A DNA stretch of 64,000 nucleotides from an uncultured Blautia sp. Lineage in GTDB: Bacteria > Bacillota > Clostridia > Lachnospirales > Lachnospiraceae. The stretch is taken from positions 109,906 through 173,905 of the forward strand of contig CAKRMK010000001.1 in NCBI GenBank assembly GCA_934364795.1, given 5' to 3'. The position numbers were made by a program, and so were the translations under genes. Shown in pieces: positions 33,557 to 62,564 of the stretch (position 1 is its first letter; the number at the start of each line of letters is the position of its first letter). Under the pieces are notes generated by a model that saw only the letters and a program-made list of their open reading frames with translations, made no database searches and had not been told where the DNA came from.

Positions 33557-33653
33557 GGGAGCAGATAGGCGCCGGTGTGCCTCCTGGTCTTCAAAACCAG
33601 TGTGGGGCGCTAATTCCGTCCCGGATGGGTTCGATTCCCATATGTTCCCGCCA
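33557..33653 (+). tRNA. selC: tRNA-Sec (anticodon TCA)
   Basis: Anticodon stem CTGGT/ACCAG with loop CTTCAAA places TCA at 33591-33593. The long acceptor pairs GGGAGCA with TGTTCCC, with one G-T wobble and a possible G-A extension to the eighth pair. There is a long variable arm (GGGGCG/CGTCCC), a T arm ATGGG-TTCGATT-CCCAT and an encoded CCA (33651-33653). The size of 97 nt and the extended arms are those of tRNA-Sec. The gene ends 7 bp before the convergent selB stop. Confidence 0.95.
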
Positions 33654-44491: not shown

Positions 44492-44823
44492 ATGTTTTCG
44501 TGCCTCCTGTTTTTTATCATTACAGTTCGATTTGCCCGTTTTCCATATTCCCGTGCTATTTTCGTTTCTTCTGAAATTTTACATGCGTCCTCATAATAAT
44601 ATTTCACTGCTGTTGCAAAAACCCAGGGACGTTTTCCCTGCAAAAGATCAGGACTGAACTTCACTTCTTTTTTATATGGAATGTCTTCATTTTCACAACG
44701 AATAACATTTCTCTGTGTTTTCAGGTCTACAATCAGTTTTGGAGAAGTTCCAATATAAATTTTTTCATCCTTAAATTCTACTTGAAACGGCAAATTTTTT
44801 ACCAATATTTTTCTCTTTTCCAA
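44488..44823 (-). CDS. Hypothetical 111-residue protein in the HipA-like cluster
   Basis: I do not recognise this family. The predicted protein is charged, with no membrane helix; it begins [17 protein letters not shown] and ends [17 protein letters not shown]. The first half looks like beta strands ([14 protein letters not shown]), the second half is helical. It overlaps the HipA-like gene by 25 nt upstream and ugd by 4 nt downstream. The tight packing suggests it is translated together with the kinase, perhaps as a partner or antidote. Confidence 0.6.
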
Positions 44824-46004
44824 ATTTTCTTTCCCTCCTGAAAAAGCTGAATATATTCTATTTTTTTCCGTATGGTTTCTATAATCCGGTCAGCTCTTTC
44901 CATCGGCATATGCGTATATCTTAGCAACAGTTCTTTTACTTCTTCGGGAAAGCCCTGAAGCTTTCGCGAATCAACTAAGTTTTTATTTTTCACGTAGGAA
45001 AGCATATTCACCTCTTTTTCACAGAACGAATTCACCCGAATATTCAACAATCCAGCTTTCACAGGTATCAAATCTTCATTAAAAAAGAGACTATTTCCTG
45101 TATCATATATAGGAGCCATCTTTACCAGATTGTGCTTTGCACTGCTGTATAAAAATCCAAAATTATTATAGTGCCTGTCTGTATTACTTAGAATAAAATC
45201 TGTTAATATCATATATTCCAGCTGCTCTCTTACTTTCTGTTCTTCCATTCCATTCTCTGCTGCCAGAAAAATAATTGCTTCATACTCGGACTGGTCATTT
45301 GGAACTTTATAATTTTTTATCAACTGATATGCCGAAACTAACTCCATTTCCTGTGAGGTAAATAATGGATTTAAACTGCATGGAAATTCCTGATCATTTA
45401 TTTTTATCATATCAATTTCATAAGGTATATAATTTTTCCATTCAAGCCGCTCATGAAGTCTGGAAGCAATTTTTTCATTTACAGCCTGCTGGCCATAATC
45501 ATTTGTATTTATTTTCATAAGATAACGTGTGTTATCACGAACCACCCATTTCTTCTTCATTTCTCCATTCACAGAGGAATCTGGAGAAAAACGTGAAATA
45601 TGTCTGCCAGCATCTATTTTCCCCGTATCCGTCAGTAAATTTCCAAGTTCATCTGAAAAATCATTATCAAAGAAATTGATTTCTGACCAATACAACTCAC
45701 TTGTAACAGGCTGCATCCAATAATGATCCGTCAAACTTAATCCATAAGAAGCCAGCATTAGAGACTGGCTGGTTTCTTCCTTTAATATTTTTAATGTCCG
45801 CTGAATTCCCTTTCGCTTATCTGGAACAGCTCTCATATTCCACCATTCAATAAGCCCGTCACCGTCTGCATCACATCCAAAAGGCAACTCTTCTGGCAGA
45901 TATACTTCCAGAATATACTCTATTCTTCCTGAAAAGGGACTTATTTTTACCATAGCAACATCCAGATCTTTATGCTTCAGTATATATAATTCTGTTCCTT
46001 CCAA
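44799..46004 (-). CDS. HipA-like serine/threonine kinase, without HipB
   Basis: The 401-residue protein carries a HipA C-terminal kinase fold. Visible: a glycine-poor P-loop region SSVNGEMKKKW near 143-153, an ATP-site lysine in RYLMKI near 164, the catalytic loop SNTDRHYNNFGFL with D276, and a DFG-like metal motif YDTGNSLF with D301. The first 120 residues are a family-specific domain, not the HipA N1 domain. The start codon is TTG behind GAGGAG. Toxin HipA kinases phosphorylate aminoacyl-tRNA synthetases, but here no HipB-type repressor is present. A standalone or differently paired kinase is likely. Confidence 0.75.
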   Translation of the reverse strand: MEGTELYILKHKDLDVAMVKISPFSGRIEYILEVYLPEELPFGCDADGDGLIEWWNMRAVPDKRKGIQRTLKILKEETSQSLMLASYGLSLTDHYWMQPVTSELYWSEINFFDNDFSDELGNLLTDTGKIDAGRHISRFSPDSSVNGEMKKKWVVRDNTRYLMKINTNDYGQQAVNEKIASRLHERLEWKNYIPYEIDMIKINDQEFPCSLNPLFTSQEMELVSAYQLIKNYKVPNDQSEYEAIIFLAAENGMEEQKVREQLEYMILTDFILSNTDRHYNNFGFLYSSAKHNLVKMAPIYDTGNSLFFNEDLIPVKAGLLNIRVNSFCEKEVNMLSYVKNKNLVDSRKLQGFPEEVKELLLRYTHMPMERADRIIETIRKKIEYIQLFQEGKKIWKREKYW

Positions 46005-46038: not shown

Positions 46039-46272
46039 TTATTCTGGACGAAGCTCTCTCACAAGTGTTCGAAATTCCTGTTCTGTATCAACAAAATGAT
46101 ACGGTGCATATTCACCATACGCTGTTGGCCTGCTGATTGTCACAAGCTGTACTCCTTTGTATCCAACAGCATTGTTTAATTCTCTTTTTAACTCTACAAG
46201 ATGTTTTCCATGACTTGTTTTTAAAGCCAGACATCCATGTGCATCACGCTCTTTCGCTATCAGATAACACAT
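46039..46272 (-). CDS. Small conserved protein, DUF6718-like
   Basis: A 77-residue protein beginning MCYLIAKERDAHGCLALKT, with a conserved-looking HGKHLVELKRELN segment and a SRPTAYGEYAPYHFVD segment. It resembles a small family I associate with DUF6718 in Clostridia; the assignment is from memory and the function is unknown. It lies 34 bp before the HipA-like gene and probably forms an operon with it. Its start lies inside the remnant ORF upstream. Confidence 0.6.
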   Translation of the reverse strand: MCYLIAKERDAHGCLALKTSHGKHLVELKRELNNAVGYKGVQLVTISRPTAYGEYAPYHFVDTEQEFRTLVRELRPE

Positions 46273-47173: not shown

Positions 47174-47225
47174 TTTTCATCACTACCGCAATGGCTTTTT
47201 TGCCGAACATTACCGAACAATATTC

Positions 47226-47254
47226 TTGTCATTCCTTATAACAAATGATATAAT
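47226..47254 (+). promoter_or_regulatory. Promoter of the nitrilase operon
   Basis: TTGTCA (47226-47231), 17-bp spacer, TATAAT (47249-47254). The ATG at 47282 follows with AGAAGGA. Confidence 0.8.
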
Positions 47255-47281
47255 GTATATCACAAAGAAAGAAGGAATGTT

Positions 47282-48709
47282 ATGGCACCAAAACTCATTG
47301 AATTTTTTAATATCATGGCCATACTGACAAGAAACATCCTGAATCATGGTTTCTATTCAGATAAAGACTTTCAAAGCATATTACATGATCCTGACAATGC
47401 CATTTTAACTCAATTAATCCAAAGCCTTCCTGAATTGATCAATCCCGATCGTACCCCCAACACAATAAGGTTGGCCGAACTTAACAGGAGTTTCTTTGCT
47501 ATATTGAATACGTTCAAAACACAAAATATTTATTCTCAATTATTATTACTTTATTACATGGATCGGGCTATCGAAAGCTGCTATGTCCGCAACTGCAATT
47601 TTGAAGACGATGTAGAACAATTCGATGCACTTAATCATAATATTGAGCAAACCCAAATTGCAATTATAAAAAAGACAAAATGTTGCTGGGAACATACATC
47701 ACCCACAGAAAATTTAACCAATAAAATTTTTTCTGCTTTTTATTACATAGATTATCAGGCCTTACCCAATACTCATGTAATAAATCACATTGTAGATGCA
47801 GAGTTAGCAGCTCCCAGATCACCCGATTGCTATAAAGTTGCAATTTCTCCTATTATGAAGCGTAAAATATTAACCTTAAGTGCTCCCTATCAACGAAAAA
47901 ACAGAAAAACCGGTGCACTCCAAAGTTTATTCAGAATTGAGAAATTGGAGCATGAAAAAGAAGTCACAGATTCTGTCATGGTAAATATTATTGCTGCCGG
48001 TCAGCAGAATACCGATATTTTAGTTTTTCCGGAAATGCTTGGCTCCATTTCCATGCTTAATCAAATCTTAGCAGAAATAAAAGAAAAACATCATCCAGTA
48101 CCTTCACTAATTGTGTTTCCTTCCATCTGGGAAAAAGCTGAAAATGATGAGCAGAACACCAATCACAGCTGTATGATTTTAAATGGCAGGGAAATACTTT
48201 TTCAGCAAAAGAAATACTGCAATTTCAGGTATTTTGAAAAAGGTAAACCTGTTTACGAAGATATTAATGACAGCTCTGACACTACAGAATTACACCTGCT
48301 GCATATTAAAGGGCTTGGACGAATATGTATTATTATATGTTATGATTATTTAGAAGCTGAAAACAGGGAGCGAATTATCAAGAATTTACAACCTACCCTT
48401 ATATGCAGTCCCTCTTTTTCCACAGGCAGTTTCGATTTCCGGCTTCTTGCACAAAGCAATCTCTATCGAAATTGCAACTGGATATGGTGCAACACCTGCT
48501 CCGCATCCAATCATACCGATAAAATACAGAATTTTGAAATCACAGGCATCATTACTACATTAAGCAGACACTGTGATTTTTCAAAAGATAAAGGAATTCA
48601 AATAAACTGTTCTGGTGTGACCCGCTGCCAGAAAGAAAATTGTGATCATTGTATTTTTTATGCTGAAATACCAATAAATGATCTCAAAAATTTAGAAAAG
48701 GTCAGGTGA
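47282..48709 (+). CDS. Nitrilase-superfamily (carbon-nitrogen hydrolase) protein with helical N-terminal domain
   Basis: The 475-residue protein has two parts. Residues 1 to about 180 are helical without a family I recognise. Residues about 185-470 look like a CN-hydrolase fold with a complete triad: Glu251 in LVFPEMLG, Lys310 or 311 in FQQKKYCNF, and Cys353 in CIIICYDYLEAENR. A late segment (LLAQSNLYRNCNWIWCNTCS) matches the family's core helix and strand. Many cysteines are present, including CQKENCDHC near 449-457. The enzyme should cleave an amide or nitrile bond; the substrate is unknown. It is the first gene of a three-gene operon, with the next ATG 4 bp after its stop. Confidence 0.7.
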   Translation: MAPKLIEFFNIMAILTRNILNHGFYSDKDFQSILHDPDNAILTQLIQSLPELINPDRTPNTIRLAELNRSFFAILNTFKTQNIYSQLLLLYYMDRAIESCYVRNCNFEDDVEQFDALNHNIEQTQIAIIKKTKCCWEHTSPTENLTNKIFSAFYYIDYQALPNTHVINHIVDAELAAPRSPDCYKVAISPIMKRKILTLSAPYQRKNRKTGALQSLFRIEKLEHEKEVTDSVMVNIIAAGQQNTDILVFPEMLGSISMLNQILAEIKEKHHPVPSLIVFPSIWEKAENDEQNTNHSCMILNGREILFQQKKYCNFRYFEKGKPVYEDINDSSDTTELHLLHIKGLGRICIIICYDYLEAENRERIIKNLQPTLICSPSFSTGSFDFRLLAQSNLYRNCNWIWCNTCSASNHTDKIQNFEITGIITTLSRHCDFSKDKGIQINCSGVTRCQKENCDHCIFYAEIPINDLKNLEKVR

Positions 48710-48713
48710 TTTT

Positions 48714-49487
48714 ATGAAAACCAAAACATACCATGTAAAAACATATGATACAAATGTTTCCGGAAATAATCAGCACAATAAACAAGCAGCTGCATACGCG
48801 CCCATTTCCAAACCTGAAGTCCAGGATTTTGAAGATCTGCTGGCGACATCTACAGATGCATATTTAGATGCATATGAAAACAACAATTTAGATCAGCTAA
48901 AAGTACTTTTAAACAGCCAGCGTTCTATTCGAAAAGAACTTACCGTTCAGCTTCGTAATTATCCGGATCAAAGAGCCATACTTTCAGCCAAGCTTGTTCA
49001 GACCTACAATATTTTCAACAAGATATTACAGTCTGCTTCAGACAAACGTGAATTAAAAAATCAAGTGGAAATAATTATAAATTCGCATAGCAATGCAAAA
49101 GATATTCTCACTTATCTTTACAAGCATCCTTACATCCGTCATAAAACATTACTCGCAGCACTGGGAATTCCTCGCGGTACACTTACCGGTACTCTTCAGA
49201 TATTAGAACAATATGGTTGTATTGAACGAATTGGTGAAGGCTGGGGAGCATTATATACTTTGACAAATACCGGGCGCAAATACGTCCGGGATAATATAAG
49301 CGGAATTGATGATGAGGTTATCATTGATTATGATTCTTTTCAAAAAAGTTCCTATCAGCTTGTCCAGAATAAAGCTTTATACACAAGTATAGAGACAGAA
49401 TTTGACAATAAAGGTTATCGCAGAGCTACACAGACTTCATATTCCGGCAAAAACTATGACACTGTTGTACTTAAATATAATATATGA
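48714..49487 (+). CDS. Winged-helix DNA-binding protein in the nitrilase operon
   Basis: The 257-residue protein has a disordered start (about 1-35), a helical middle (about 38-115) and a MarR/ArsR-like winged helix near 125-195: ILTYLYKHPYIRHKTLLAAL, then IPRGTLTGTLQILEQYGCIE and a wing in GWGALYTLTNTGRKYV. The C-terminal 60 residues are of unknown type. Its ribosome site AGGTGA overlaps the end of the nitrilase gene, so the two are coupled. It may repress the operon or bind nucleic acid as a sensor. Confidence 0.65.
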   Translation: MKTKTYHVKTYDTNVSGNNQHNKQAAAYAPISKPEVQDFEDLLATSTDAYLDAYENNNLDQLKVLLNSQRSIRKELTVQLRNYPDQRAILSAKLVQTYNIFNKILQSASDKRELKNQVEIIINSHSNAKDILTYLYKHPYIRHKTLLAALGIPRGTLTGTLQILEQYGCIERIGEGWGALYTLTNTGRKYVRDNISGIDDEVIIDYDSFQKSSYQLVQNKALYTSIETEFDNKGYRRATQTSYSGKNYDTVVLKYNI

Positions 49488-49496
49488 GGTAAAAAT

Positions 49497-50111
49497 ATGA
49501 CTTTATTAGAAAAAAAATTAGAAGATTTAAATTCTCTTGATCAGAACTGGCTGCAAACAGTTTCCGACGAAATGAAAAATAAAAATACCCCTTCAACCCC
49601 GGATCTTGTAAAAAACTACAATCAGTTATGGGATATTTTACGTGAATCCTATAAAAAAAATCAGGCTGAAACAATTAAAACATTTAAAACATATGTTGGA
49701 GAAAATAATGGAAACTGGCTATTAGAGGATATTGAAAATTCCCTGAAAATATATTTCTCGCTTGAAAATTTACGTCAAAATCAAACCGAAAAACCAGAAA
49801 AAGTAAAACAGCTCATAGATTATTTATTTGAAAATGTAATTCTTTATTATGACCCACAATTCATAAATGATTACCAGGAATTTCATTATGAAAAAAAGTC
49901 ACAGTTCTGGAGCGCTGCAAAGGCATTAGATGGATTAACTGATTATTATATCAAACATCACTATACAGAAAAAGCAATTATAAAAGATCTGGAAATGGAA
50001 ACAGGATTAAATACAGATTTGTGTACATACATAGAAAACATTATTAAGAAAAACTATCAGACATTACAGTTAAATTATATTATTGATTCCTTGCCATCTA
50101 AGCAGGGTTAG
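49497..50111 (+). CDS. Hypothetical helical protein, third gene of the nitrilase operon
   Basis: I do not recognise this 204-residue family. It begins MTLLEKKLEDLNSLDQNWLQ and is predicted by eye to be almost all helical, rich in Asn, Lys, Glu and Tyr. It has no membrane helix and no catalytic motif I can see. It lies 9 bp after the winged-helix gene and is followed by a 14-bp perfect hairpin. Its tight linkage suggests a structural or regulatory partner of the nitrilase-like enzyme. Confidence 0.6.
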   Translation: MTLLEKKLEDLNSLDQNWLQTVSDEMKNKNTPSTPDLVKNYNQLWDILRESYKKNQAETIKTFKTYVGENNGNWLLEDIENSLKIYFSLENLRQNQTEKPEKVKQLIDYLFENVILYYDPQFINDYQEFHYEKKSQFWSAAKALDGLTDYYIKHHYTEKAIIKDLEMETGLNTDLCTYIENIIKKNYQTLQLNYIIDSLPSKQG

Positions 50112-50115
50112 AGTT

Positions 50116-50154
50116 TGTCCGGTTCATGTACCCTTTTTTTACATGAACCGGACA
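50116..50154. terminator. Perfect hairpin after the nitrilase operon
   Basis: TGTCCGGTTCATGT (50116-50129) pairs with ACATGAACCGGACA (50141-50154). The T-run lies in the loop, not after the stem, so it may be an mRNA stabilising or recombination structure rather than a standard terminator. Confidence 0.6.
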
Positions 50155-50468: not shown

Positions 50469-53400
50469 TTATTTTACCGTTACCTTACATTTTCTCTTAT
50501 ACTTACCACTTGAAACTGTAATCACTGCAGTTCCCTTTTTCTTTCCTTTTATAACTCCTCCGGTTGATACAGTTGCAACCTTTTTATTTGAGGACTTATA
50601 ACTGATTTTTTCATCTGTGTTTTTGGGGACTGCTGTTATTTTCATTTTATATTTTTTCCCGGCTTTAAGATTCACTTTCTTCGGGATACCAAGAAGTTTC
50701 TTTGTTTTTACTTTCGGCACCTGAATCTTGACAACAGCTTTCACATTTCCCGATTTCACTGTAATATTTGCAGTTCCGGCTTTTTTTGCTTTCACTACAC
50801 CTTTTGAATTCACAGACGCCACTGCCCGATTGGAGGAAGTATAAGTAATCTTATCCTCACTGTTCTTCGGATTTAACTGTGGATTTAAGGTTAAGGATTT
50901 TCCCTTTGTAAGAGTTACTTTCTTTTTCAGACCGGAAATGGATGTGGTTTTAACCGGTCCCTGCACGTTTACTTTTATTACAGTGTTAAGACCACTGGCA
51001 AGCTCAATATATACGTCTGCAGTTCCTGCTTTTTTATAAGATGTTAATGTAAAGGTTCCGTTTTTATCAACATTTGACACATTTACGACATCTGTACTTT
51101 TAGATATTACCTGCTTTAAATAATCTTTTCCTGAAAAGCCAGATACTTTTACCACAGAGCTTGTCTGGGAATACTTCATTGTATACTCGGCCATATTCAC
51201 ATGCATGGTATATTTCTGTTTTTCACCCAATGTCTGCTGGTGGCATGTGCTGCACTCCCTATAGCTTTGTGTCTCTCCGTCAATATCCGCAAAAACAACA
51301 TTTCCGTCATTGCCTTTAACAGTACGTACCGCAGTTAATGGCGTAAAAATCCAAGCTCCCCAGGTGTGTGATTTCAAATCAACCACCACATCAGAATCTT
51401 TTATCTTCTGTTTTCCATATGTATCACTAAAGCATCCGTTACAAACTGTACATTTCCAATATGCTATGTTACCTTTTTCTATACAGGTTGCCTGTTTTTC
51501 TGGTATATAAGCCATTTTGTGTGAGAGCTGTTCCGGATCTTTTCTTTCCAGAATCATGGTTCCTTCCGCATTTTGAAAATTAATTCCGCATACATTGCAA
51601 TGCCAGTATTCAATGGAATTCACACAGGCAGTCTGCACTTTTTCATGATGTTCGAGAGTGTCCTCAACATTATGGGAATGGATTCCTGCCCATTTTGCAT
51701 AATGCAGGGCATAGGAATCTTCTGTTCCAATAATAACGAAATCACGATTCATATTATATTTCTTTGAGTCACTGTCATAAGTATACCCGAAGCACTTCTC
51801 TCCCATTTTTGTCTCCGAGCCTGGGATATAAACACTTTTTAGATTATTGCAATTTATAAAGCTGTATTTTCCAATTTCCTGTAAGCTATTGGATATTATA
51901 ACCTCCTGCAGATTTGTACAATCTGCAAATGCACTTTCCCCTACCGTCGCCAGACTTTCTGGCAATGTCATGGTTTCTAATCCCTCGCATTTAGAAAAAG
52001 CTTTTTTGGCTATCCAGCTTAAGCTATCAGGCAAAACAACATTTGCCAAACTGCCACAACCTGAAAATGCCCCTTCGCCAACCCCCTTTATTCCCTCTGG
52101 CAAAATCACATTTTCCAGATTCTCACATCCTGCAAACACTGCATTTCCAATATTTTTAAGGCCCGCTGGCAATGAAACATTCTTCAGAGCATCACAGTCG
52201 CAAAAAGCATAGTCTCCAATATCATTCATGCTGCCTTCAAATGTAACATTTGCCAAAGCATTACATTCATCGAAAGCTTGTATTCCTATACTTTTTATAT
52301 TAGCAGGAATCACGATTTCTTTTAATCCGGTACAGAAAAAATCTCCCGTATTAATAGCTGTTAAATTGCCTGATAATGTCACATTTTCCAGTCCTGTACA
52401 ATACGCAAACACATAGATACCAAGTTCCGTAACACTATCCGGTAATAGTATCTGCGGCAGACTGCGGCATTCCCTGAATGCATAATTCTCAATTACGGTT
52501 AATCCATCTGGAAGCACAATATTCTCCAGTCTGGTACATCCCATAAACGTTTTTTCTTTGATGCTTTTGATTCCATTTGGCAAAGTTACACTGACAAGAT
52601 TGTTACAGTCCATAAATGTACTGACTCCCATATTTACCAGGCTGTCAGGTAAAGTAATGTTCTCCAAACTACTGCAGCCGGAAAAGGCATTATCTCCTAT
52701 ATCCGTCAGACTCTCCGATAATTCTATATTTTTCAAACTGCTGCAGTCACGGAACGCTTCCGAACCGATAGTTTCCAATTTTTTATATTCTGGAAAAGAT
52801 TCCAGTTTTTTGCAACCTGCGAAGGCTCTGTTTCCTATGGTTGTTAAACGTTTGCCATAACCCCAATCTTTTTCTTCAGTGGTTACTTCATATAAACTGC
52901 TACAGCCGTAAAATGCATTCGCTCCAATTTCCTCCATGTTATCCAGATGAATGCTTTTCAGACTGCTGCAACCCGAAAATGCACTGTCTTCTACACTAAG
53001 TATTGCTGGCGTCTCAATGCTTTCCAGACTGGTACAGCCGGAAAATAACGCCTTACCCATCATAGAAAGGGGATATTTTATGCTGGTAAGACTGCGGCAA
53101 TCCTTAAAAACTCCATCCCCAATTCTTAATATCGTATTCGGAATAGAAATATCATTCAGATTGTTGCAAAAACTAAATGCGTACCTTCCAATCTCAATCA
53201 TTGAATCCGGTAATGTCACCTTCGTCAGATTCTTACATCCGTAAAATGCAGAGGCGCCAATACCATTTACTCCGTCATAGATCACCACTTTCTTTATATC
53301 GTTACGGTTTTTAAAAGCATCAACTGCAACCGTTGTTTTTACATTTTTATTATCACTTTTAATTCTTAAATTTCCATTTGAGTACAATTCATAAGTAAGA

Positions 53401-53807
53401 TTAGCACCACAGCCTCCTGTATCATACAAATATGGTTTCTCATTAGGAGCGTCCTCATCTGAATCAGCTTCTAAATCAGCTTCCGGCGTGCCATCTGCAC
53501 TTCCGCCATCTCCTGTAAATTCCAGTTCCTGGTTTTCCCCTGAATCAGCAATATCAGACTCTTCATCATATTCCCCGTCTACAAAATTTCCAAACGCTTC
53601 TGTTTCTTCACGTTCTTCTATTTCTTCATTTTCTTCTGCTTCTCCCCCGCCGGGTTCATTCTCCCATGCATCGTTTGGAATTGTTTCATCTGCAGTTGTT
53701 TCTCCTGTAAACTCTGTCTGCTCCATGCCCTCTGCCTGTGTTCTCACTCCAGTGCCTAACACAAACAAACTACCTGCAAGTAAAATGAACCTGCGTATTT
53801 TTTTCAT
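50469..53807 (-). CDS. BspA-type leucine-rich repeat surface protein with C-terminal Ig-like domains
   Basis: Large secreted protein of 1112 residues. Signal peptide at about 1-25 (MKKIRRFILLAGSLFVLGTG), an acidic Glu/Asp/Gly-rich linker (about 26-120), then about twenty LRR_5 repeats (about 150-690) with the consensus IG.NAF.GCSSLENITLPDSL, and two Big_2-like domains near the C-terminus (about 950-1112, SNRAVASVNSKGVVKAKKAG and SNKKVATVSTGGVIKGKKKG). There is no LPXTG; retention may be by the basic C-terminus. Likely an adhesin or glycan-binding protein. It starts only 18 bp after the DUF2971 gene. Its stop codon directly abuts an Rpn scar. Confidence 0.85.
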   Translation of the reverse strand: MKKIRRFILLAGSLFVLGTGVRTQAEGMEQTEFTGETTADETIPNDAWENEPGGGEAEENEEIEEREETEAFGNFVDGEYDEESDIADSGENQELEFTGDGGSADGTPEADLEADSDEDAPNEKPYLYDTGGCGANLTYELYSNGNLRIKSDNKNVKTTVAVDAFKNRNDIKKVVIYDGVNGIGASAFYGCKNLTKVTLPDSMIEIGRYAFSFCNNLNDISIPNTILRIGDGVFKDCRSLTSIKYPLSMMGKALFSGCTSLESIETPAILSVEDSAFSGCSSLKSIHLDNMEEIGANAFYGCSSLYEVTTEEKDWGYGKRLTTIGNRAFAGCKKLESFPEYKKLETIGSEAFRDCSSLKNIELSESLTDIGDNAFSGCSSLENITLPDSLVNMGVSTFMDCNNLVSVTLPNGIKSIKEKTFMGCTRLENIVLPDGLTVIENYAFRECRSLPQILLPDSVTELGIYVFAYCTGLENVTLSGNLTAINTGDFFCTGLKEIVIPANIKSIGIQAFDECNALANVTFEGSMNDIGDYAFCDCDALKNVSLPAGLKNIGNAVFAGCENLENVILPEGIKGVGEGAFSGCGSLANVVLPDSLSWIAKKAFSKCEGLETMTLPESLATVGESAFADCTNLQEVIISNSLQEIGKYSFINCNNLKSVYIPGSETKMGEKCFGYTYDSDSKKYNMNRDFVIIGTEDSYALHYAKWAGIHSHNVEDTLEHHEKVQTACVNSIEYWHCNVCGINFQNAEGTMILERKDPEQLSHKMAYIPEKQATCIEKGNIAYWKCTVCNGCFSDTYGKQKIKDSDVVVDLKSHTWGAWIFTPLTAVRTVKGNDGNVVFADIDGETQSYRECSTCHQQTLGEKQKYTMHVNMAEYTMKYSQTSSVVKVSGFSGKDYLKQVISKSTDVVNVSNVDKNGTFTLTSYKKAGTADVYIELASGLNTVIKVNVQGPVKTTSISGLKKKVTLTKGKSLTLNPQLNPKNSEDKITYTSSNRAVASVNSKGVVKAKKAGTANITVKSGNVKAVVKIQVPKVKTKKLLGIPKKVNLKAGKKYKMKITAVPKNTDEKISYKSSNKKVATVSTGGVIKGKKKGTAVITVSSGKYKRKCKVTVK

Positions 53808-53825: not shown

Positions 53826-55247
53826 TTATAATTTCCAAAACGCCTTTTTACGAATCACAATCTCCTGTTTTTCTTCGTCATATTCGGCCTGATAAAAAGT
53901 AAAATCCTCTAAGTCCGCTTTATGCTTTGCCAATGTATTCAAAATTCTTTTCTTATCATATTCTGACGTATTGATTCCAAAAATTATCCCTTTCAGAATT
54001 TTCCATTCAAAAGGGACATTCCGCTGCTTTGGTTCATTAAATTCACCAAAAGTATTTGTAAGGGCTGCCCGAAACTCATTTTCATGCTCCCATGCATTTG
54101 TTTTGCGGTAAGTTTTGGCTTCATATGTTTCCCAATAACGTTCCTGCCATTTCTCCGGTTCTGAAAATGCCGCCTGATAGCAGCTGCTAATTTCTTCAGT
54201 ACCCAGCAGCCACTCCTTAATCTGCCGCATATTCAAACGGCCAAAAGTCTGGAAAAAATTGCGCTCAATTATATTTCCACCATAAGAAACAGGTTTCACA
54301 TCAAGAGAAATAGAATCCTTCGATACTTTGACTTTTATTTTATCCTCATCTTCAGTATCGTAAACAAGACATACTCCCTTATGGCAGTCCGCATAATTCC
54401 CCCACATAGCTGAATCATCATTTTTTCCTGAAAAACATACAACATAACTCTCTGGATAAATCATTTCCGTCAACTGCTTTACAAATACTTTTGGAAAATC
54501 AATAGCAACTGTCAACCAATCTCTATGTTGCCGTGCTTTGGAAACATCGTCTCTTTTTTCTCTGTCCTTTTTATCTGCGGAAGGATTTCCATAAAGAAAA
54601 GTGTCATCCTGCGAAGCCTGAAGCATATAAGTAAACTCCTGCATATCTTCCGCAAATCTTTCCACCAACTCCATTATCTTAATACGCTTTTCTTCAGATG
54701 AAAGGCTTTTATCCATTTCCTCAAGTGTTTTCCTTACAGGAAGTGGCCGGTCAAAAAAATTAATAAAATGCTCTGCTTCTTCCTCTTCCATTAAATTTCT
54801 TTGCTGAAATTCTCTTAAACAATTCACAAGTGCTTTGCTGTGAATAAGGCGAATAATATATCGAAGTTCTTTCTCTGATACTTTTAGACAATGCCCTTCA
54901 TAAAACTCTGCCAAACGCTGTACATCTGGCTCTTCCAAAAATTGTGTTCCCAGTTTTCTTAGGAGGGAGCCAAAAGGAACATCATCAAATCGATGAACAT
55001 CTGCAATCAAAGTGTTATGATGAAGTAACTCTTCATCAGCTCCTATAAGATATAGCTCCAGTGCCTGCCCAACACTATATATGTAATGCCTGAACAATCC
55101 CTCCCAGGCAGCCTTATCACCCTGCCAGTAAACACGTACAAAACCTTCCAGGGGATCATTTAATTCTTCTCTGGCAGCAAAATGAAAAGTGCCATTGCCA
55201 AGTTCCAGAAGGGCACTATTTATGGAACGATAATGGTATAATTTCAT
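53826..55247 (-). CDS. DUF2971-family protein
   Basis: Start at the ATG at 55247 (MKLYHYRSINSALLELG, 473 residues) after AAGGAGAAA; the ORF continues upstream without a good start. DUF2971 hallmarks: LYHYRS at the N-terminus, FHFAAREELNDPLEG near 20-35, and the WGNYADCHKGVCLVYD block near 300. A central insertion of about 200 residues is charged and helical. The biochemical function of the family is not established to my knowledge; members often lie in accessory islands. Its neighbours here are an Rpn remnant and the STAND ATPase gene, in the same direction. Confidence 0.75.
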   Translation of the reverse strand: MKLYHYRSINSALLELGNGTFHFAAREELNDPLEGFVRVYWQGDKAAWEGLFRHYIYSVGQALELYLIGADEELLHHNTLIADVHRFDDVPFGSLLRKLGTQFLEEPDVQRLAEFYEGHCLKVSEKELRYIIRLIHSKALVNCLREFQQRNLMEEEEAEHFINFFDRPLPVRKTLEEMDKSLSSEEKRIKIMELVERFAEDMQEFTYMLQASQDDTFLYGNPSADKKDREKRDDVSKARQHRDWLTVAIDFPKVFVKQLTEMIYPESYVVCFSGKNDDSAMWGNYADCHKGVCLVYDTEDEDKIKVKVSKDSISLDVKPVSYGGNIIERNFFQTFGRLNMRQIKEWLLGTEEISSCYQAAFSEPEKWQERYWETYEAKTYRKTNAWEHENEFRAALTNTFGEFNEPKQRNVPFEWKILKGIIFGINTSEYDKKRILNTLAKHKADLEDFTFYQAEYDEEKQEIVIRKKAFWKL

Positions 55248-55294
55248 TTTATCATTTCTCCTTCGTTTACCTCTTCTATTATATTTCGCGGCTG

Positions 55295-55621
55295 TCATTC
55301 CGTTTTTTTAATAATCTCTTGAATCTGCTTTTCATCCACCTCTGCTACATCAGCAATCTGAGCAATTGTATAACCCTTGCCGTACATTTTCAGGATCATT
55401 TCTTTTCTTCCCATTTCAATTCCATTTGCAGTGCCAATCTTAATTCCGTTTGCAGTTCCAATCTCAATTCCACTTTCTTTAATCTTCTGGCTCAAATTAC
55501 ACATAACACTCACATCCTCTCTGAAATCTTTTTCCATTGGAATCTCATACTCATTTCCAATAATGTCTATTTTTTCATTTGCAGTCAAATCCTGGGATAG
55601 CAGTACACCCAGCAATCTATG
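55295..55621 (-). pseudogene. Rpn 3' remnant
   Basis: From position 55621 the reading frame matches the C-terminal 100 or so residues of the intact Rpn gene at 60,246: HRLLGVLLSQDLTANEKIDI to the ending VDEKQIQEIIKKTE. It contains an extra in-frame eight-codon unit (GIEIGTAN then GIKIGTAN) compared with the intact copy. Homology begins 4 bp after the stop codon of the STAND ATPase gene. The 5' two thirds of Rpn are missing. Confidence 0.85.
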
Positions 55622-55625
55622 GAAA

Positions 55626-58454
55626 TTAATAAGCTTCCCCAAAATCATGCTTTCCAAAATCCACTCCTGTAAAATTAACATTTTTCCATTCATTTTTTTC
55701 GAATACAGTATTCACAAATTTTGTATTCTCCAGACTGCCACCAAACATTTTCGAATTCCTTATATTAGCGTTTTTGAAATTTCCCCGCTTTATAATACAA
55801 TTCGTAAATATGCTATTAAATATCAGACGTCCACTCAGATTAATATGGTTAAAGCAACAATTGTCACATATCACATCACCAAAATCAAATTTGCTGGCTT
55901 TCGAATAACTCCAGTCAACATTTTCTAGCTTCGTGCCTGCAAATACACAGCTTTCTATAGTACATCCATTGAAATCACCACTTATAATCTCTGTATTATA
56001 GAAATAACATTCCCGAAGGACAGCCCCCACAAAGCTTACATGATCCAATACTGCTCCAGAAAAATCCACACCAATCAGCGTGGCCCCCGCAAATGATACC
56101 TGATCCCCAAGTTTACATTCTCGAAAATTAGTCATATTCAAGGAGCTATATTCAAATGATGTTCCCCTAAACTCGCTTTTTTCAAAATCTTCTCTCTCCA
56201 AATATTTTCTATCAAAAGAAATATTTTGAAATATGCAATTCTCTCCAATAAAAATTCTTTTATCATTAGGAATTGGAATTCTTTTTCGAAATATCTCACT
56301 CCAGTCTGATAAAATATCTGACTTCGCAATATCAGCCAGTGCCTCAGGAGTATCTGCAAATACATTCTTCTGACTCCTAATTCCCAATCCACTCTGCCAG
56401 ACTCTGACCAGAAGTAATACATTTGACACTGTATACTTTATTTTCTGGTAATTATTTCTGCCATAAGAATATTTCCAAATAGTATCATCACAGAAAACAC
56501 TTGAAAAAACCCTTGCAAAAAACTTTTCAGCTTTTTTCCTGTCATATTCTTCCTCTGAAACTTCTCTTTCAAACCTGATTCTTTCATGGAGAAACAAAAG
56601 TGTTTCTACCCAGGTACTTCCCGCAATTTCGCCATATGACAAGATCTGACACATACATTCCAGAAATCCTTTTATATTTTCTTCTGAGTCCGACAGAAGA
56701 AACTCTTTCACTTTGTCATATATGTACTCACAGAAAAAGTAGTCACGTATATTGTTATGATAAAATTCCAGAACACCCTTCTTCTCATTACTTTTCCAAT
56801 ATGCACATAAAACACAACACTTCCGGATCCATTTTTCATATGAAGGCTCCAGATCAAATTCACTTACAATATGATCCAAATCTTTTGACTCTATAAAATA
56901 CTGTTCCTTCTCACTTTTTTTAAAAATTTCAAATGCAATCCTTTCTACAATCTCCAATAAAAGCTCCTTACTCTCTCTGATAGGATGCTTCGAACTGCTA
57001 TAGAAATTTTCATCATACTCTGTCTCTATAATTGCCTTTGTAAAGATTTCATGATACAGTGCCCATATATTCCACTGCAACTCCTCTCTCATCTCACAGG
57101 CTGCCAGCAGATATAAAGCCAACGGAGTGTCTGCTACTCCTGCAACTTTCTCTTTATCGACATTGAGAATATATTCTTTCGTTTCCTGTGGTATTGTTTC
57201 TCCGCATTTCTCATACTTCTCGATCCACGCTTCTCTCATTTTTCTGTCAAAATGCTGCATGCGGACTTCTTTAAACTTAAAAGTTTCACTGGCAAATTTC
57301 TTATAATCAATATATTGAGGACGTGTCGTAACAATAATCTTGTTTTTCTTAAAAATCTTTCTGACAGATTTTATAATATCCTCCAGACTACTCTTTAAGC
57401 GTCCTTCCAACATACTAAGTTCATCTGCACCATCTAAAATTACAATATGATTATGAAACTCTGCTCTATATTCATCAAAGGTTGAAAGGCCTAAATATTT
57501 TGCTATATTATTTTCTATTATGCGATCTTTCTCATCTACTTCCAGATCTCTCAATCTAATACAGATCAGTTTTCCCTGTAGAAAAATCCCTCTGCCTTCT
57601 TCATCCTGTTCTCTGTAGTGATAACACAAATATGAAATAAAACTGCTTTTTCCACAGGCTGCATCCCCTTCAATAAACAATATCCGCCGCTCTGTTTCAT
57701 TCCACAAAAATTTCCCCAATATAGAAACCAGCTCCTGTGGTTTACTATTCAATTCCTGAATTTTCGGCTGCACGAAAACACCTTCTAAGGTAACCTGAGA
57801 ATTCTTCTTATTTGCATGCCGAAATAACTTCGCTTTGAAATTTTCTGCATATTCACTGATAATTGTATCAATATTATTTTTAACTGGAATCTTCGGTTCA
57901 AAAGGACCAAATAAAGCGGAATTCTCATTCATAAATTTTTCCAGTGACGCTATTTTTTCTCTATCTGAGACTTCTGAAAGGCTGTGCACTTTTTTTGAGA
58001 GAATTGAAAAATCATATATATTTTTTCTCTGATCAAAAAATATTCCTGGAGGACATTTATAACCACCATTTCTGCCTTTGTAGTTCACACTTTCTTTTGC
58101 ACTAATTTTCAAAATCACGAAATACAAGGTATACCCGGCTAATTCCGGATCGCACTGTACCATATTTCCAATAGTTTTCAGCGTATCTATTACCTTATCC
58201 GGTCTATCTGTAGATGTCACCTGAACAATAATTTTATCCCTTTTACTGATCAGATCATAGCCTGGGCAGTCAGGGATCATACTATTTGCATTCACTATAT
58301 CCCATCCAAATATGATTCTGAGCAAATCCCTTATAAAGAATTCCGCATCAATATTAATATCGTGTAGCTTACAGCTGTTATTTAAATGTATATAAGCACA
58401 AAGTACGCTCATTCCTGTATTAAATTTTTGAATCAGCTCTTCTCTTTTTATCAT
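55626..58454 (-). CDS. SMEK-NACHT-pentapeptide STAND ATPase (NLR-like defence candidate)
   Basis: The 942-residue protein has three parts. Residues 1-180: SMEK-like domain with a PD-(D/E)XK-type core, PGYDLISKRDKIIVQVTS (D67, Q78), probably the effector or DNA-binding nuclease part. Residues about 250-640: NACHT-type STAND ATPase with Walker A GDAACGKSS (263-271), Walker B IVILDGADEL (337-346) and the arginine segment IIVTTRPQYIDY (373-384). Residues about 775-942: pentapeptide repeats (NFRECKLGDQVSFAGATLIG). Bacterial NACHT proteins act against phages by sensing and oligomerising. The start has GAGG upstream and lies 58 bp after the Kiwa-like membrane gene. Confidence 0.82.
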   Translation of the reverse strand: MIKREELIQKFNTGMSVLCAYIHLNNSCKLHDINIDAEFFIRDLLRIIFGWDIVNANSMIPDCPGYDLISKRDKIIVQVTSTDRPDKVIDTLKTIGNMVQCDPELAGYTLYFVILKISAKESVNYKGRNGGYKCPPGIFFDQRKNIYDFSILSKKVHSLSEVSDREKIASLEKFMNENSALFGPFEPKIPVKNNIDTIISEYAENFKAKLFRHANKKNSQVTLEGVFVQPKIQELNSKPQELVSILGKFLWNETERRILFIEGDAACGKSSFISYLCYHYREQDEEGRGIFLQGKLICIRLRDLEVDEKDRIIENNIAKYLGLSTFDEYRAEFHNHIVILDGADELSMLEGRLKSSLEDIIKSVRKIFKKNKIIVTTRPQYIDYKKFASETFKFKEVRMQHFDRKMREAWIEKYEKCGETIPQETKEYILNVDKEKVAGVADTPLALYLLAACEMREELQWNIWALYHEIFTKAIIETEYDENFYSSSKHPIRESKELLLEIVERIAFEIFKKSEKEQYFIESKDLDHIVSEFDLEPSYEKWIRKCCVLCAYWKSNEKKGVLEFYHNNIRDYFFCEYIYDKVKEFLLSDSEENIKGFLECMCQILSYGEIAGSTWVETLLFLHERIRFEREVSEEEYDRKKAEKFFARVFSSVFCDDTIWKYSYGRNNYQKIKYTVSNVLLLVRVWQSGLGIRSQKNVFADTPEALADIAKSDILSDWSEIFRKRIPIPNDKRIFIGENCIFQNISFDRKYLEREDFEKSEFRGTSFEYSSLNMTNFRECKLGDQVSFAGATLIGVDFSGAVLDHVSFVGAVLRECYFYNTEIISGDFNGCTIESCVFAGTKLENVDWSYSKASKFDFGDVICDNCCFNHINLSGRLIFNSIFTNCIIKRGNFKNANIRNSKMFGGSLENTKFVNTVFEKNEWKNVNFTGVDFGKHDFGEAY

Positions 58455-58512
58455 TGGATTTTCCTCGATTCACTGGTATTTACGAATGGATATAGGAAAC
58501 ATATCTATAAAA

Positions 58513-59079
58513 TCACTTTCGTTTCAACGCCTCAGTGCAATCTAAAACATATTCATTATTTAGATATCTCACCAATATTTTTTCACCAACATTCTTTTTT
58601 AAATACTTTTTGCTTAATACCTTTTTCTCAACCAGCTTATCACCTTCACTCTTATATTTACAGTTATATATTTTGTAATTCATAGCTTCAAGAACCACAT
58701 TCACACAAAAATAGTTGTGTTTGATGCATAACCAGCCAAATATAAGGAAAAAAACCAGAAACAAAATAACACCTTGATGATGAGTAAAATCGAACGCAAA
58801 CATAGGAAAAATAAAAGACATTAAGAACTCTGCTGCAAGAAACTTTTCTTCTTGCACTGCTTCCAGGCATATGCGTTTCACATTATCGCTACTTTTAGAA
58901 TTCAATTTACTTCGCATTTTCCAAACTGCTATAATTAGGAAAAAGGGAATCACCACAACGCTAATATATTCTGTTGTCAGGTATTTATCATTTTCACATA
59001 TGCTGAAAATATCTGTTAATATTACCAAAATCCAAAGTGGAGTAAAAGAAAGATAATACATACTCAGCTGAAATACCAT
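58513..59079 (-). CDS. kwaA: Four-helix membrane protein, KwaA-like
   Basis: Start chosen at the ATG at 59079 (MVFQLSMYYLSF, 188 residues) because GGAGG stands 5 bases before it; the ORF itself continues to 59136. Four hydrophobic segments (about 1-25, 36-55, 85-103, 106-125) are followed by a basic soluble tail of about 60 residues. KwaA of the Kiwa system is a four-helix membrane protein. The call depends mostly on the adjacent kwaB-like gene, because KwaA sequences are poorly conserved. It follows that gene by 13 bp. Confidence 0.6.
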   Translation of the reverse strand: MVFQLSMYYLSFTPLWILVILTDIFSICENDKYLTTEYISVVVIPFFLIIAVWKMRSKLNSKSSDNVKRICLEAVQEEKFLAAEFLMSFIFPMFAFDFTHHQGVILFLVFFLIFGWLCIKHNYFCVNVVLEAMNYKIYNCKYKSEGDKLVEKKVLSKKYLKKNVGEKILVRYLNNEYVLDCTEALKRK

Positions 59080-59092
59080 CACAACCTCCATA

Positions 59093-60019
59093 TCACTGCC
59101 AGCTCTTGGCTGCAGCCACTTCCACGGGAGAATCATCCAACGGATCCAACATAGCCTTATTGCAGAGAAATTTCACCAGACGTGCAGACGTTTTTTCATC
59201 ATTCGTGTCAATCTCATTACCTCTTAGTTTAAGATCAAACATATTCGCCAGTTTTTTCCTTTTACGTACATTTTTCATAGCATCAAGCCGCGACTGATTA
59301 TACGAAACAAACCTTCTTGGATTGGATCCAGATGTTGCAATTCTCTGAAACATTGCTGCATCTGTCAAAAATCCACATTCTATAATTTCATTTACTTTAT
59401 TATTACAAACAGCTTTGTATGCTCTCTCCATTGCAAATAAATTTTCCCCTGCAAGAGTAAGCATATAAACTGTGTTTCCCAGAATAACAACATCAATAGA
59501 TCTTTTCAGAGTCAATATAGGGTCAGTAATTTCCCTGAATGCTTTTTTCTCAAAGTTCAGTAAAAACCTATTTGTCATATTCATCATAGGTGACTGCATC
59601 GAAATAAGCTTTATTGGAACAATCTCAGAATCAATTTCTACTTCTCCAAGAACTATATATGCATTAAATTTCGTATCACCAATGCAACTCTCCGTATCAG
59701 GATCCGCTACCACATTGCACATTTTTCCATACTCTTCTAAAATCAGCGCATTATCTCCGTCAAGCTTATATATCACATTTCCCACAACATCACCTGTATA
59801 TTCATCTACACTAGCATATGTATCATTTTCCATAGCCTTCGAATATTTATCAGCTAGTTCACGGGCAAACATCTCAATTTTCCCCTCCGGATTTAATACA
59901 CACTCTCTGGAATAATATGTCACATCTTCTTTTTTAGATTTTATTTGAAGTAACTGCAATGAAAAACAGGTTGTATTCTTCATTTCATCAAAAGCCTTCT
60001 TAAGTAACTTTTTACTCAA
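59093..60019 (-). CDS. kwaB: DUF4868 (KwaB-like) protein of a Kiwa-type anti-phage system
   Basis: The 308-residue protein fits the DUF4868/KwaB family. It has an N-terminal domain, a middle part (KLISMQSPMMNMTNRFLLNF to ILTLKRSIDVVILGNTVYML), and a C-terminal region with NPRRFVSYNQSRLD near 235 and an ending EVAAAKSWQ. KwaB binds DNA at the membrane-bound KwaA and blocks phage DNA functions in E. coli. The start is TTG at 60019 with GGAGGAG seven bases upstream. Gene order here is kwaB then kwaA, the reverse of the E. coli system. It has its own promoter. Confidence 0.75.
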   Translation of the reverse strand: MSKKLLKKAFDEMKNTTCFSLQLLQIKSKKEDVTYYSRECVLNPEGKIEMFARELADKYSKAMENDTYASVDEYTGDVVGNVIYKLDGDNALILEEYGKMCNVVADPDTESCIGDTKFNAYIVLGEVEIDSEIVPIKLISMQSPMMNMTNRFLLNFEKKAFREITDPILTLKRSIDVVILGNTVYMLTLAGENLFAMERAYKAVCNNKVNEIIECGFLTDAAMFQRIATSGSNPRRFVSYNQSRLDAMKNVRKRKKLANMFDLKLRGNEIDTNDEKTSARLVKFLCNKAMLDPLDDSPVEVAAAKSWQ

Positions 60020-60117
60020 TATTCTTCTCCTCCAGTAGGTTTTATTTACTTATTTTTTCTGAAAATTTATCATAAAAATTCAACCAAAACTGGATGTTTA
60101 CGATAGTGTTTTGTTTT

Positions 60118-60146
60118 ATTATAGGATAAATGACTGGGATATGCAA
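60118..60146 (-). promoter_or_regulatory. Promoter of the Kiwa-like genes
   Basis: TTGCAT (60146-60141), 17-bp spacer, TATAAT (60123-60118) on the minus strand; the TTG start lies about 98 bp on. Confidence 0.75.
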
Positions 60147-60170
60147 ATAATTTTCTTGAATTTTTCTACT

Positions 60171-60202
60171 AAAAACTCGCACCACAGCCTCGGCTGTGGT
60201 GC
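60171..60202 (-). terminator. Terminator after the Rpn gene
   Basis: GCACCACAGC (60202-60193 on the minus strand) pairs perfectly with GCTGTGGTGC (60188-60179), followed by GAGTTTTTAG. It isolates Rpn from the Kiwa-like promoter. Confidence 0.85.
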
Positions 60203-60245
60203 ATTCTTTAAAATTCTAGTATACAAAATTCTTTTATACCGGCAA

Positions 60246-61208
60246 TCATTCATTTTTTTTAATAATATCTTGAATCTGCTTTTCATCCACCTCTGCTACA
60301 TCAGCAATCTGAGCGATTGTATAACCTTTACCGTACATTTTCAGAATCATTTCTTTTCTTCCCATTTCAATTCCATTTGCGGTTCCAATCTCAATTCCAC
60401 TTTCTTTAATCTTCTGGCTCAAATTACACATAACACTCACATCCTCTCTGAAATCTTTTTCCATTGGAATCTCATACTCATTTCCAATAATGTCTATTTT
60501 TTCATTTGCAGTCAAATCCTGGGATAGCAGTGCACCCAGCAATCTATGTAACTCATATTTCTCCTCATGTACGGGAATCTCTTCTGAAAGTCCGATCATA
60601 ACAATATTGAACAAATCCAATTTGCCTTTCCAGCTGTGTGAATTTATGATACTGTCTTTCACCAGATGAATGTGTTCCAGGCTGTTTTCTGGCATATTCA
60701 TGCAGATCCAAATGGAATAAACACGTTTGATATCATTATAATTGGAACCCTCAAAGTCTCTCTCTTTCTGTGAAGAAACCATGCGGCTTACGTAAAAAAT
60801 CGCGCGATTCAATATATCGTATCCACCTGGTTCATCCTTCTGGGCTTCTACATTAATGATAATCTGTGACAGCCCATCCTTCATCCTGACATAAAATATA
60901 ATGTCAAACCGTATCAATCCTTCATGGAGTTCCTGATTTTCAGAATTAAAACCAATCACACGGGATCCTTCTTTTTCAATAAACGTATTCGTAAGTCCCG
61001 GCTCTACTGGAACACGGCTAATAAATGGTTTCCCTTCAATATACGGAACGACATCCTTTGGATTCATTCCGGCAAACTCATCAACGGTTTTCACTAATAT
61101 ATGAGCCAGAATATATTTCTGGCTAAGTAATCTTTTTGCACATTCGTCATACTGTGCATCTTTATCTGTCGTAAGAATTAAATTTCTGATTTCTGTGTTC
61201 AATGGCAT
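60246..61208 (-). CDS. Rpn-family recombination-promoting nuclease/PD-(D/E)XK putative transposase
   Basis: Start at the ATG at 61208 (MPLNTEIRNLIL, 320 residues) behind AAAAGGAG. The N-terminal nuclease domain shows RFDIIFYVR near 121 and IIINVEAQKDEPGG near 137, the D and E-x-Q positions of Rpn nucleases. The C-terminus carries GIEIGTANGIEMGRKE and a small HTH-like motif (YTIAQIADVAEVDEKQI). Rpn proteins promote RecA-independent recombination in E. coli. This is the only intact copy; two 3' remnants and one promoter copy lie elsewhere in the island. It lies between a truncated abiH and the Kiwa-like genes. Confidence 0.88.
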   Translation of the reverse strand: MPLNTEIRNLILTTDKDAQYDECAKRLLSQKYILAHILVKTVDEFAGMNPKDVVPYIEGKPFISRVPVEPGLTNTFIEKEGSRVIGFNSENQELHEGLIRFDIIFYVRMKDGLSQIIINVEAQKDEPGGYDILNRAIFYVSRMVSSQKERDFEGSNYNDIKRVYSIWICMNMPENSLEHIHLVKDSIINSHSWKGKLDLFNIVMIGLSEEIPVHEEKYELHRLLGALLSQDLTANEKIDIIGNEYEIPMEKDFREDVSVMCNLSQKIKESGIEIGTANGIEMGRKEMILKMYGKGYTIAQIADVAEVDEKQIQDIIKKNE

Positions 61209-61210
61209 TT

Positions 61211-61290
61211 CTCCTTTTCTACAGTGTATCGAAATCATTCTTCGGCTATATTGATATTATACTCTAAATCTGAATTGGTCACAACCGCCA
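61211..61290 (-). promoter_or_regulatory. Rpn promoter segment, duplicated at 47,095
   Basis: TTGTGA (61284-61279), 17-bp spacer, TATAAT (61261-61256), then the ribosome site. The same 80 bp occurs at 47,095-47,173. The AbiH reading frame runs into its distal end. Confidence 0.8.
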
Positions 61291-61821
61291 ATATTTGAAA
61301 ATCGGCACTGAAAACAATATTGCATCTACTGATCCATGAATATGTAAAATATGATCTTCCGGAATATTATATAAATTTTCCAGTGTCTTCGTATAATTAA
61401 ATGTTACAAAATAACTATCAGAATAAAAAACATGACGTTTGAAATTATTATCTATAAACTGCTGATCTTCATTCCAAATCCATTCATAAAAAAAATCTCT
61501 CGTAAATTTCTTGATAAATCCATAGCGATTATTTACTTCAATACCAATATCATCCCATCCCGGTGTTCTCTCACTGTCCAAATCGGGATAGTAATTATCT
61601 GTTATTTCAGAAAAAGCGGAATCATAATCTAGCCAAAGCGCATTTTCCAAATCGCTCCATCTACTATTCACATCCACTTCTGCACCCTTGGTATATTCCA
61701 TCATATTAAACTTATATACAAGATCAGGATACTTTTCCGACAAATAATTCCTATAATCCCAGTATGACGTTTTTCTCCCATGATTAAGGTCAAATCCATT
61801 TCCAACTATATAAAGTTTCAT
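61279..61821 (-). pseudogene. AbiH-family abortive infection protein, C-terminally truncated
   Basis: The frame starts MKLYIVGNGFDLNHGRKTSY at 61821 (180 residues), the AbiH signature (IGNGFD at the nucleotide-binding loop). It continues with WSDLENALWLD, FVTFNYTKTLENLY near 150 and HILHIHGSVD near 165. Normal AbiH proteins continue for at least another 90-150 residues after the HIHG motif. Here the frame stops 14 residues later, at the edge of the Rpn promoter segment. GAGG precedes the ATG. It follows the HTH gene closely (11-bp gap). AbiH aborts phage infection in lactococci; this copy is probably inactive. Confidence 0.8.
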
Positions 61822-61832
61822 CTCATAGTACC

Positions 61833-62564
61833 TCACTTTCGTGTCCTTTTTAATTCCATTCTTGCAGCTATCTTCTCTGGCACATCAATCAATCCAAACC
61901 GATAAAATATAGGATATATATAAGAAATCCCCCGTATATCCCCTATGTCTTTTGGTTTTTCAACAATCTTATCATCTAACTCTCTAACCTTTTCATATGC
62001 CAATAATACAGAACTCCATGTCAGACTTTTACTCTTATCTCGTCGATCCACCCACAATTCCCTGTTAAGTATTCCTTTTCTTCCCACCGGAATTTTATAT
62101 AAAAACGGCAGTCCAGAAAAAGTATGAAAGGGATAACCTTGAAACGCAGTTATCGCAGACCATAAAGTATCTTCATCTGGCTTGTTATTCAATAACTCAA
62201 CAGAAACTTTACGTTTTCGATATACCTGTATTCTCGTAGCATTCATGCTCACAATATCTGATTTGTATATAGTCTTTGAATATGGCAAATAGCCATTTAC
62301 TGATGATTTTTTCAATCCTGTAATCTCCATTATCTGCTGTACTGTTTTTCCCTGCCTATATAACTCATTAACTTCATCTGATACTTCATTCCAATATACC
62401 CCTGCAGTAATTAGCATCTTCCGTATTTTCAATGGCGATAAACTAAATTCATTCGCTGTAATCTTTAGCTCTCCAGTTTCTTCATATGATTCTGCTACAG
62501 CTTCTATCAATTCTTTCTGTATTTTATCTGCATTATAATCTGGAAACTTTTTAGGTCTGGGCAT
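61833..62564 (-). CDS. HTH-domain protein, possible partner of the RES protein
   Basis: Start set at the ATG at 62564 (MPRPKKFPDYNADKIQ, 243 residues); the ORF extends to 62594. It has two helix-turn-helix-like stretches: FSLSPLKIRKMLITAGVYWN (about 40-60) and GKTVQQIMEITGLKKSSVNG (about 72-91). The C-terminal 120 residues contain a conserved-looking FSGLPFLYKIPVGRKGILNR block. I associate similar proteins with Lachnospiraceae accessory regions but know no function. It overlaps the RES gene by 14 nt and could be its regulator or antitoxin. Confidence 0.6.
   Translation of the reverse strand: MPRPKKFPDYNADKIQKELIEAVAESYEETGELKITANEFSLSPLKIRKMLITAGVYWNEVSDEVNELYRQGKTVQQIMEITGLKKSSVNGYLPYSKTIYKSDIVSMNATRIQVYRKRKVSVELLNNKPDEDTLWSAITAFQGYPFHTFSGLPFLYKIPVGRKGILNRELWVDRRDKSKSLTWSSVLLAYEKVRELDDKIVEKPKDIGDIRGISYIYPIFYRFGLIDVPEKIAARMELKRTRK

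Follow-up and report, generated by a model that had tools for sequence, protein, structure and literature searches.

A compact accessory unit of three genes, A, B and C, is scattered patchily through one bacterial family, and one copy lies in the window, the whole 64,000-nucleotide stretch of DNA from an uncultured Blautia sp. analysed here. We tentatively read A-B-C as a self-regulated nitrilase effector cassette, accessory and horizontally exchanged, which B and C would hold in check until a trigger, probably phage, sets it free; we consider this reading plausible and a little short of probable. Its grounds are the nitrilase fold of A, a conserved catalytic triad, the fixed A-B-C order, purifying selection, a patchy distribution with empty sites, and the constant distance between a promoter repeat and the -35 box. 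We further infer that C contacts A, that the A enzyme is harmful to the cell, and that phage is the trigger. The initial annotation, whose interpretation as a whole is partly supported, had proposed sensor/effector roles and a cofactor-type substrate, which may hold.

Architecture of the unit

The window unit comprises three consecutive ORFs on the + strand, with intergenic gaps of 4 and 9 bp in the ORF calls, and is framed by the following elements:

47200..47221, + strand: tandem direct repeat TTGCCGAACA/TTACCGAACA(AT), 10-bp period, ending 4 bp before the -35 box, proposed operator
47226-47254, + strand: promoter TTGTCA-17-TATAAT with an extended -10, from the promoter scan
47230..47279, strand not applicable: 8-nt inverted repeat CATTCCTT / AAGGAATG, reaching from promoter to ribosome site
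47282-48709, + strand: gene A, nitrilase-fold enzyme, 475 aa (residues 1-104 helical, 105-177 mixed, ~177-468 nitrilase domain)
48714-49487, + strand: gene B, proposed regulator, 257 aa (helical N-terminus, MarR-like winged helix at residues ~126-195)
49497-50111, + strand: gene C, all-helical protein, 204 aa (residues 82-200 COMMD HN-like in the model)
50116-50130 / 50140-50154, strand not applicable: perfect inverted repeat closing the unit, 15-nt arms, 9-nt loop

The ORF coordinates bear out the operon that had been proposed on first inspection, and the single promoter ahead of it is likewise confirmed as the top promoter-like site of the region (11 of 12 matches); the promoter scan returned 19 sites, compared with an average of 15.4 after shuffling, and weight is given to this top site only. 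As for the closing hairpin, the perfect inverted repeat stands, but it finds no support as a terminator, having no T-run downstream and being absent from the list of the terminator scan. The inverted repeat CATTCCTT / AAGGAATG has no counterpart at the other loci examined and may be a chance occurrence. A non-coding RNA at the window unit was considered and rejected, the one Rfam match being a sub-threshold snoRNA located elsewhere. A LexA-type box at the promoter was ruled out by eye against the LexA consensus, because the repeats are direct rather than inverted.

Gene A encodes a predicted nitrilase-superfamily enzyme

The model of A displays an alpha-beta-beta-alpha nitrilase fold that starts near residue 177-183. 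Of the 180-residue helical domain claimed earlier to precede it, residues 3-104 are indeed helical, and the remainder up to the nitrilase fold is mixed. The alignments place the following residues:

48032-48034, + strand: catalytic Glu251
48212-48214, + strand: catalytic Lys311
48257-48259, + strand: Glu326
48338-48340, + strand: catalytic Cys353
48626..48652, + strand: C-terminal cysteines 449, 454 and 457

The complete triad first read as E251, K310/311 and C353 is confirmed and conserved across homologues, in 59/59 rows and in 20/20 rows of a diverse set; the lysine is residue 311, which is invariant, residue 310 being variable. Glu326, which lies where nitrilases have their fourth catalytic residue, is kept in 58/59 rows (with one gap) and in 20/20. 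Close to the C-terminus, Cys449 (59/59), Cys454 (57/59) and Cys457 (58/59), all three present in 20/20 rows of the diverse set, possibly form a metal site. Window A matches no Pfam family, CN_hydrolase at its cutoff included, and weak CN_hydrolase matches are returned for 5 of the 59 A members (best 7.1e-4). This missing match is a limit of the profile; superfamily membership is decided by fold and triad, and the predicted fold together with the triad places A in the nitrilase (C-N hydrolase) superfamily.

Genes B and C

The winged helix assigned to B in the initial annotation finds a Pfam MarR match, which remains below threshold (21.5 bits against a cutoff of 24.6). PADLOC analysis of B reports generic wHTH-type matches, and its Csa3/CARF matches span mainly the winged helix. 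The model of C is all-helical through to the C-terminus, and its residues 82-200 bear a possible resemblance to the COMMD HN domain (best Foldseek E 0.099, 8-13% identity), with no COMM domain at the helical C-terminus. C occurs as two types without detectable similarity to each other by hhalign, which weakens the case for a single role of C. By hhalign, C shows no similarity to A or to B either, and a shared origin was rejected for these pairs as it was for the two types of C. At L036:11288-12388, a second-type C carries an extra C-terminal stretch with a DUF1828 match just under the cutoff (21.3/22 bits).

A tandem repeat accompanies the promoter

The window repeat CCGAACATTACCGAACAAT at 47203-47221 is the sole match in the window at up to 2 mismatches, with 0.08 expected, and a tandem repeat occupies the same position upstream of A in relatives. 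Repeats with at least 8/9 matches are found in 9/12 A-B-C promoters versus 20/229 regions lying upstream of other ORFs (Fisher 2.7e-7), and those with 9/9 in 6/12 versus 5/229 (1.5e-6), in a post hoc test that was designed after the repeats were noticed and that scored periods of 9-12; an earlier test of the 11-bp period only failed for the window (P 0.976), and the range was then widened to 9-12. Shuffling each locus by itself gives no significance for the window (P 0.070), L003 (0.292), L031 (0.384), L033 (0.100), L034 (0.108) and L035 (0.546). One of five A-only loci reaches 8/9, as do L124, L125 and L127 among the four later loci, where L126 scores only 5; of these, L124 and L127 are closely related to L003. 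In seven promoters (window, L001, L003, L023, L027, L030 and L032), those where script and word concur, the second GAA precedes the -35 TTG by 10-11 bp, and L033 agrees by eye. Since the motif accompanies cassettes carrying B, B may be the protein that binds it.

With one mismatch allowed, CCGAAYNATNCCGAAYNAT matches once in each of G001, G002 and G003, every time at the cassette, against 0 for the reversed control; the sequences of G002 and G003 are almost the same at this place. A host-wide regulon for the repeat was rejected, CCGAAYNATNCCGAAYNAT being confined to the cassette in these three genomes. The looser TGAAYAANNNNTGAAYAA is not unique to the cassette in four other genomes, with 4, 16, 15 and 10 matches (reversed controls 1, 7, 5 and 3), of which 1, 1, 2 and 3 are perfect, one per genome at the cassette.

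Upstream of five cassettes, a second promoter is immediately followed by an 11-bp hairpin and a T-run (GTGGTGRCARAYTTTCTYGG...):

L001:2004-2055: second-promoter hairpin element
L003:9867-9922: second-promoter hairpin element
L124:7723-7776: second-promoter hairpin element
L127:6950-7004, - strand: second-promoter hairpin element
L126:11042-11093, - strand: second-promoter hairpin element, ~20 bp before the A start of a cassette with the second C type

Among the loci examined, this element is found only beside cassettes, and it is absent from the window. Its alignment has 55/55 cells paired, with 2 pairs changed on both sides (n=5 sequences only). It may be a tiny RNA or an attenuator.

Distribution, order and exchange

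Relatives in the protein database number 66 for A, 8 for B and 3 for C, the last two being undercounted because the search was word-based; a genome scan returned three named loci, all with A-B-C. The A profile matches 15 of 397 genomes in the family to which G003 belongs (Lachnospiraceae according to the tree print-out), or 14 after removal of G195, whose match is an ordinary 265-aa nitrilase. A broader profile matches 80 of 391 genomes of the class, full-length only in the already known G003 and G210 and over the nitrilase part in the other 78. At the genus level, the count is 7/58 genomes.

The three genes are kept together in one order in 17 loci (window, L001-L003, L023, L027, L030-L036 and L124-L127), among which A is interrupted in L027, L002 and L003 are near-identical, and the C of L127 was located by tblastn. 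Among the 16 loci measured, intergenic gaps lie between -62 and +74 bp in all but L031, which has a larger one. Comparison of L003 with L127 yields dN/dS values of 0.12 for A, 0.14 for B and 0.18 for C, which indicate purifying selection on all three genes; in pairs further apart, dS approaches or exceeds saturation. By ORF list, A stands without B and C at four loci (L024, L025, L028 and L029), so A can persist without them, and lies at a contig edge in L026; the A proteins of these five loci form one clade (support 100/100).

Two chromosomal sites illustrate the patchiness. Among 30 telA loci scanned for the telA-proS site, 3 have A adjoining telA, 15 lack A and carry proS in the flank, and 12 are indeterminate. 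An rpiR gene (orthologues 71-75% identical) is adjoined by the cassettes L001, L125 and L126 in three species and two orientations, their A proteins sharing 23-28% mutual identity by tblastn, and the rpiR gene of three other species (G1185, G1190 and G003) has a cassette-free 1.5-kb flank. No copy of the cassette was matched in viral contigs, phages or plasmids, so its mobility is read from its distribution alone.

The C profile matches 7 of 387 family genomes, 5 within A-B-C units, the others being an orphan (L122) and a fragment (L123). The orphan (L122:9190-9807, 205 aa) follows a DUF815 ATPase gene, and A and B were not seen in that stretch. Together with the interrupted A of L027, these decay products speak for a toxin-antitoxin-like or abortive module without its own phage sensor, with A as toxin, C or B as neutraliser and B as autoregulator, and the small operon with its dedicated regulator also fits such a module. 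Nonetheless, A is large compared with such toxins, its gene comes first in the order, and the partnerless A-only clade survives, and we hold this explanation to be unlikely.

Genomic setting

The surroundings of the unit in the window include:

33557-33653: tRNA-Sec, the only ARAGORN tRNA of the window
44799-46004, - strand: HipA C-terminal-like protein (Pfam HipA_C 1.4e-10, PADLOC PDC-M03A 8.5e-22)
46039-46272: DUF6718 gene, beside the HipA-C gene
50469-53807, - strand: repeat protein of 1112 aa adjoining the cassette, with repeats that by eye we take to resemble BspA-type leucine-rich repeats
53826-63852, - strand: defence-like cluster (Pfam, PADLOC) with DUF2971/PDC-S31, SMEK-NACHT-pentapeptide, KwaA, KwaB, PDDEXK_2 transposase-like, AbiH and HEPN/RES

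Clear other defence genes are present in 3 of 15 scanned neighbourhoods: that of the window, that of L030 (a type II-A retron, an FRG protein and AbiH) and that of L031 (a Csx1-like CARF-HEPN protein two genes away). The other 12 appear as islets amid housekeeping genes. The neighbour scan covered 121 proteins, encoded by ORFs of 150-900 aa within 7 kb of 13 cassettes other than those of the window and L030, A-only loci being excluded. At E 1e-10, it returned mad3 (4 members), mad8 (2), mad2, dGTPase, RTasPolA, SspA and AriA (1 each), presumed to be housekeeping relatives, and no clear defence protein was traced among the 121 besides the Csx1-like one. The defence island described earlier thus exists around the window unit, with Kiwa, AbiH and NACHT nearby, but is no property of the unit itself, and three neighbourhoods of 15 are suggestive of defence without making a rule.

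The prevalence of housekeeping neighbours would suit a regulated metabolic cassette with no immune role, in which A would be an amidase serving either detoxification or the use of a scarce nitrogen source, B a substrate-sensing regulator and C a chaperone or partner. One regulator with one operator is the typical design of a catabolic operon, and the canonical-nitrilase profile outscores the small DRT profile in 17/17 A proteins. However, neither a transporter nor a pathway gene accompanies the unit, which stays intact while A falls to 15-20% identity, C is of two types and insertion sites are varied. Single-gene homologues in metabolic operons had been named at the outset as evidence against a defence unit; the lone A genes found, four in one clade, go part of the way towards this, but they have no common metabolic neighbour and their surroundings showed no recognisable metabolic operon. 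We regard the metabolic explanation as rather unlikely.

Proposed mechanism and significance

In the effector-cassette reading that we prefer, A would be a nitrilase-superfamily amidase of the Cys-Glu-Lys kind; its activity would be costly or harmful, and restrained under normal conditions. B would bind the tandem repeat beside the -35 box and set the expression of its own operon, as activator or repressor, and C, via its COMMD HN-like protein-binding domain, would restrain or license A, or sense the trigger. Upon the trigger, most likely phage infection, A would act on an abundant small molecule, hydrolysing or transferring an amide in it, and growth would stop. It is possible, if doubtful, that the unit represents a new immune architecture, with a nitrilase effector, a dedicated winged-helix regulator that works through a tandem operator, and a COMMD HN-like gating protein, diverged versions with two C types being swapped at shared chromosomal spots.

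According to PMC13275509, nitrilases are uncommon in defence and the substrate of DRT1 is left open. If the proposal is true, an RT-free nitrilase unit with its own regulator offers a simpler system for finding substrate and switch, and the promoter repeat and triad make regulation and catalysis both directly testable. A COMMD HN-like domain would be unexpected in such a unit, and gating by it would be a bacterial use of a fold known best from the eukaryotic Commander complex.

Comparison with known systems

The unit had been presented as an undescribed system, and it carries no known system name. No paper on it was found in the open-licence literature, and PADLOC 2.0 reports no known anti-phage system with a specific match to all components; window A returns a weak RTasNitrilase match only (E 1.7e-5, residues 76-405), B wHTH-type matches and C none, a pattern that is the same in relatives.

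Like A, DRT1 and the class 3 UG RTs possess a nitrilase fold with Glu-Lys-Cys, and in PMC13275509 the DRT1 nitrilase domain is a toxic anti-phage effector of abortive infection. The weak RTasNitrilase match, returned also for the A proteins of L023 and L024, could mean that the unit is a relict of the DRT class 3 (UG1/UG5) nitrilase systems, or belongs to them without an RT, which we consider very improbable. The unit is devoid of an RT, the one RT noted in the gene lists of units and flanks being that of the type II-A retron ~4 kb from A in L030. By eye, 4/5 presumed DRT nitrilases end in TPP and none has the three-cysteine tail, the reverse of A. The DRT profile, built from 5 sequences only, some cropped, scores under the canonical one, and the nitrilase domain of A is no closer to these five than to canonical nitrilases. 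With no RT and no closer kinship, the DRT1 precedent is one of analogy, not membership, and the unit also differs by its separate regulator B and helical protein C. At L075:493-2403 and L076:511-2400, proteins of ~636 aa are matched twice in tandem by the RTasNitrilase model.

Nitrilases are named among cyclic-nucleotide effectors in PMC8157118. The PADLOC model for the CARF-nitrilase effectors of type III CRISPR (CARF_m7--CARF_nitrilase) matches the A-only homologue L024 (8.7e-8, residues 297-438) in its nitrilase part and not window A. CARF-nitrilases are marked by a CARF sensor domain; for A, the model shows a helical N-terminal region. COMMD proteins, whose HN domain the model of C may resemble, are 8-13% identical to C, which has no COMM domain. 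Lastly, canonical nitrilases (yeast Nit2, amidases and the glutaminase domain of NAD synthetase) are 13-18% identical to A, which differs from them by an additional N-terminal region of ~177 residues, the three-cysteine tail and an operon shared with B and C.
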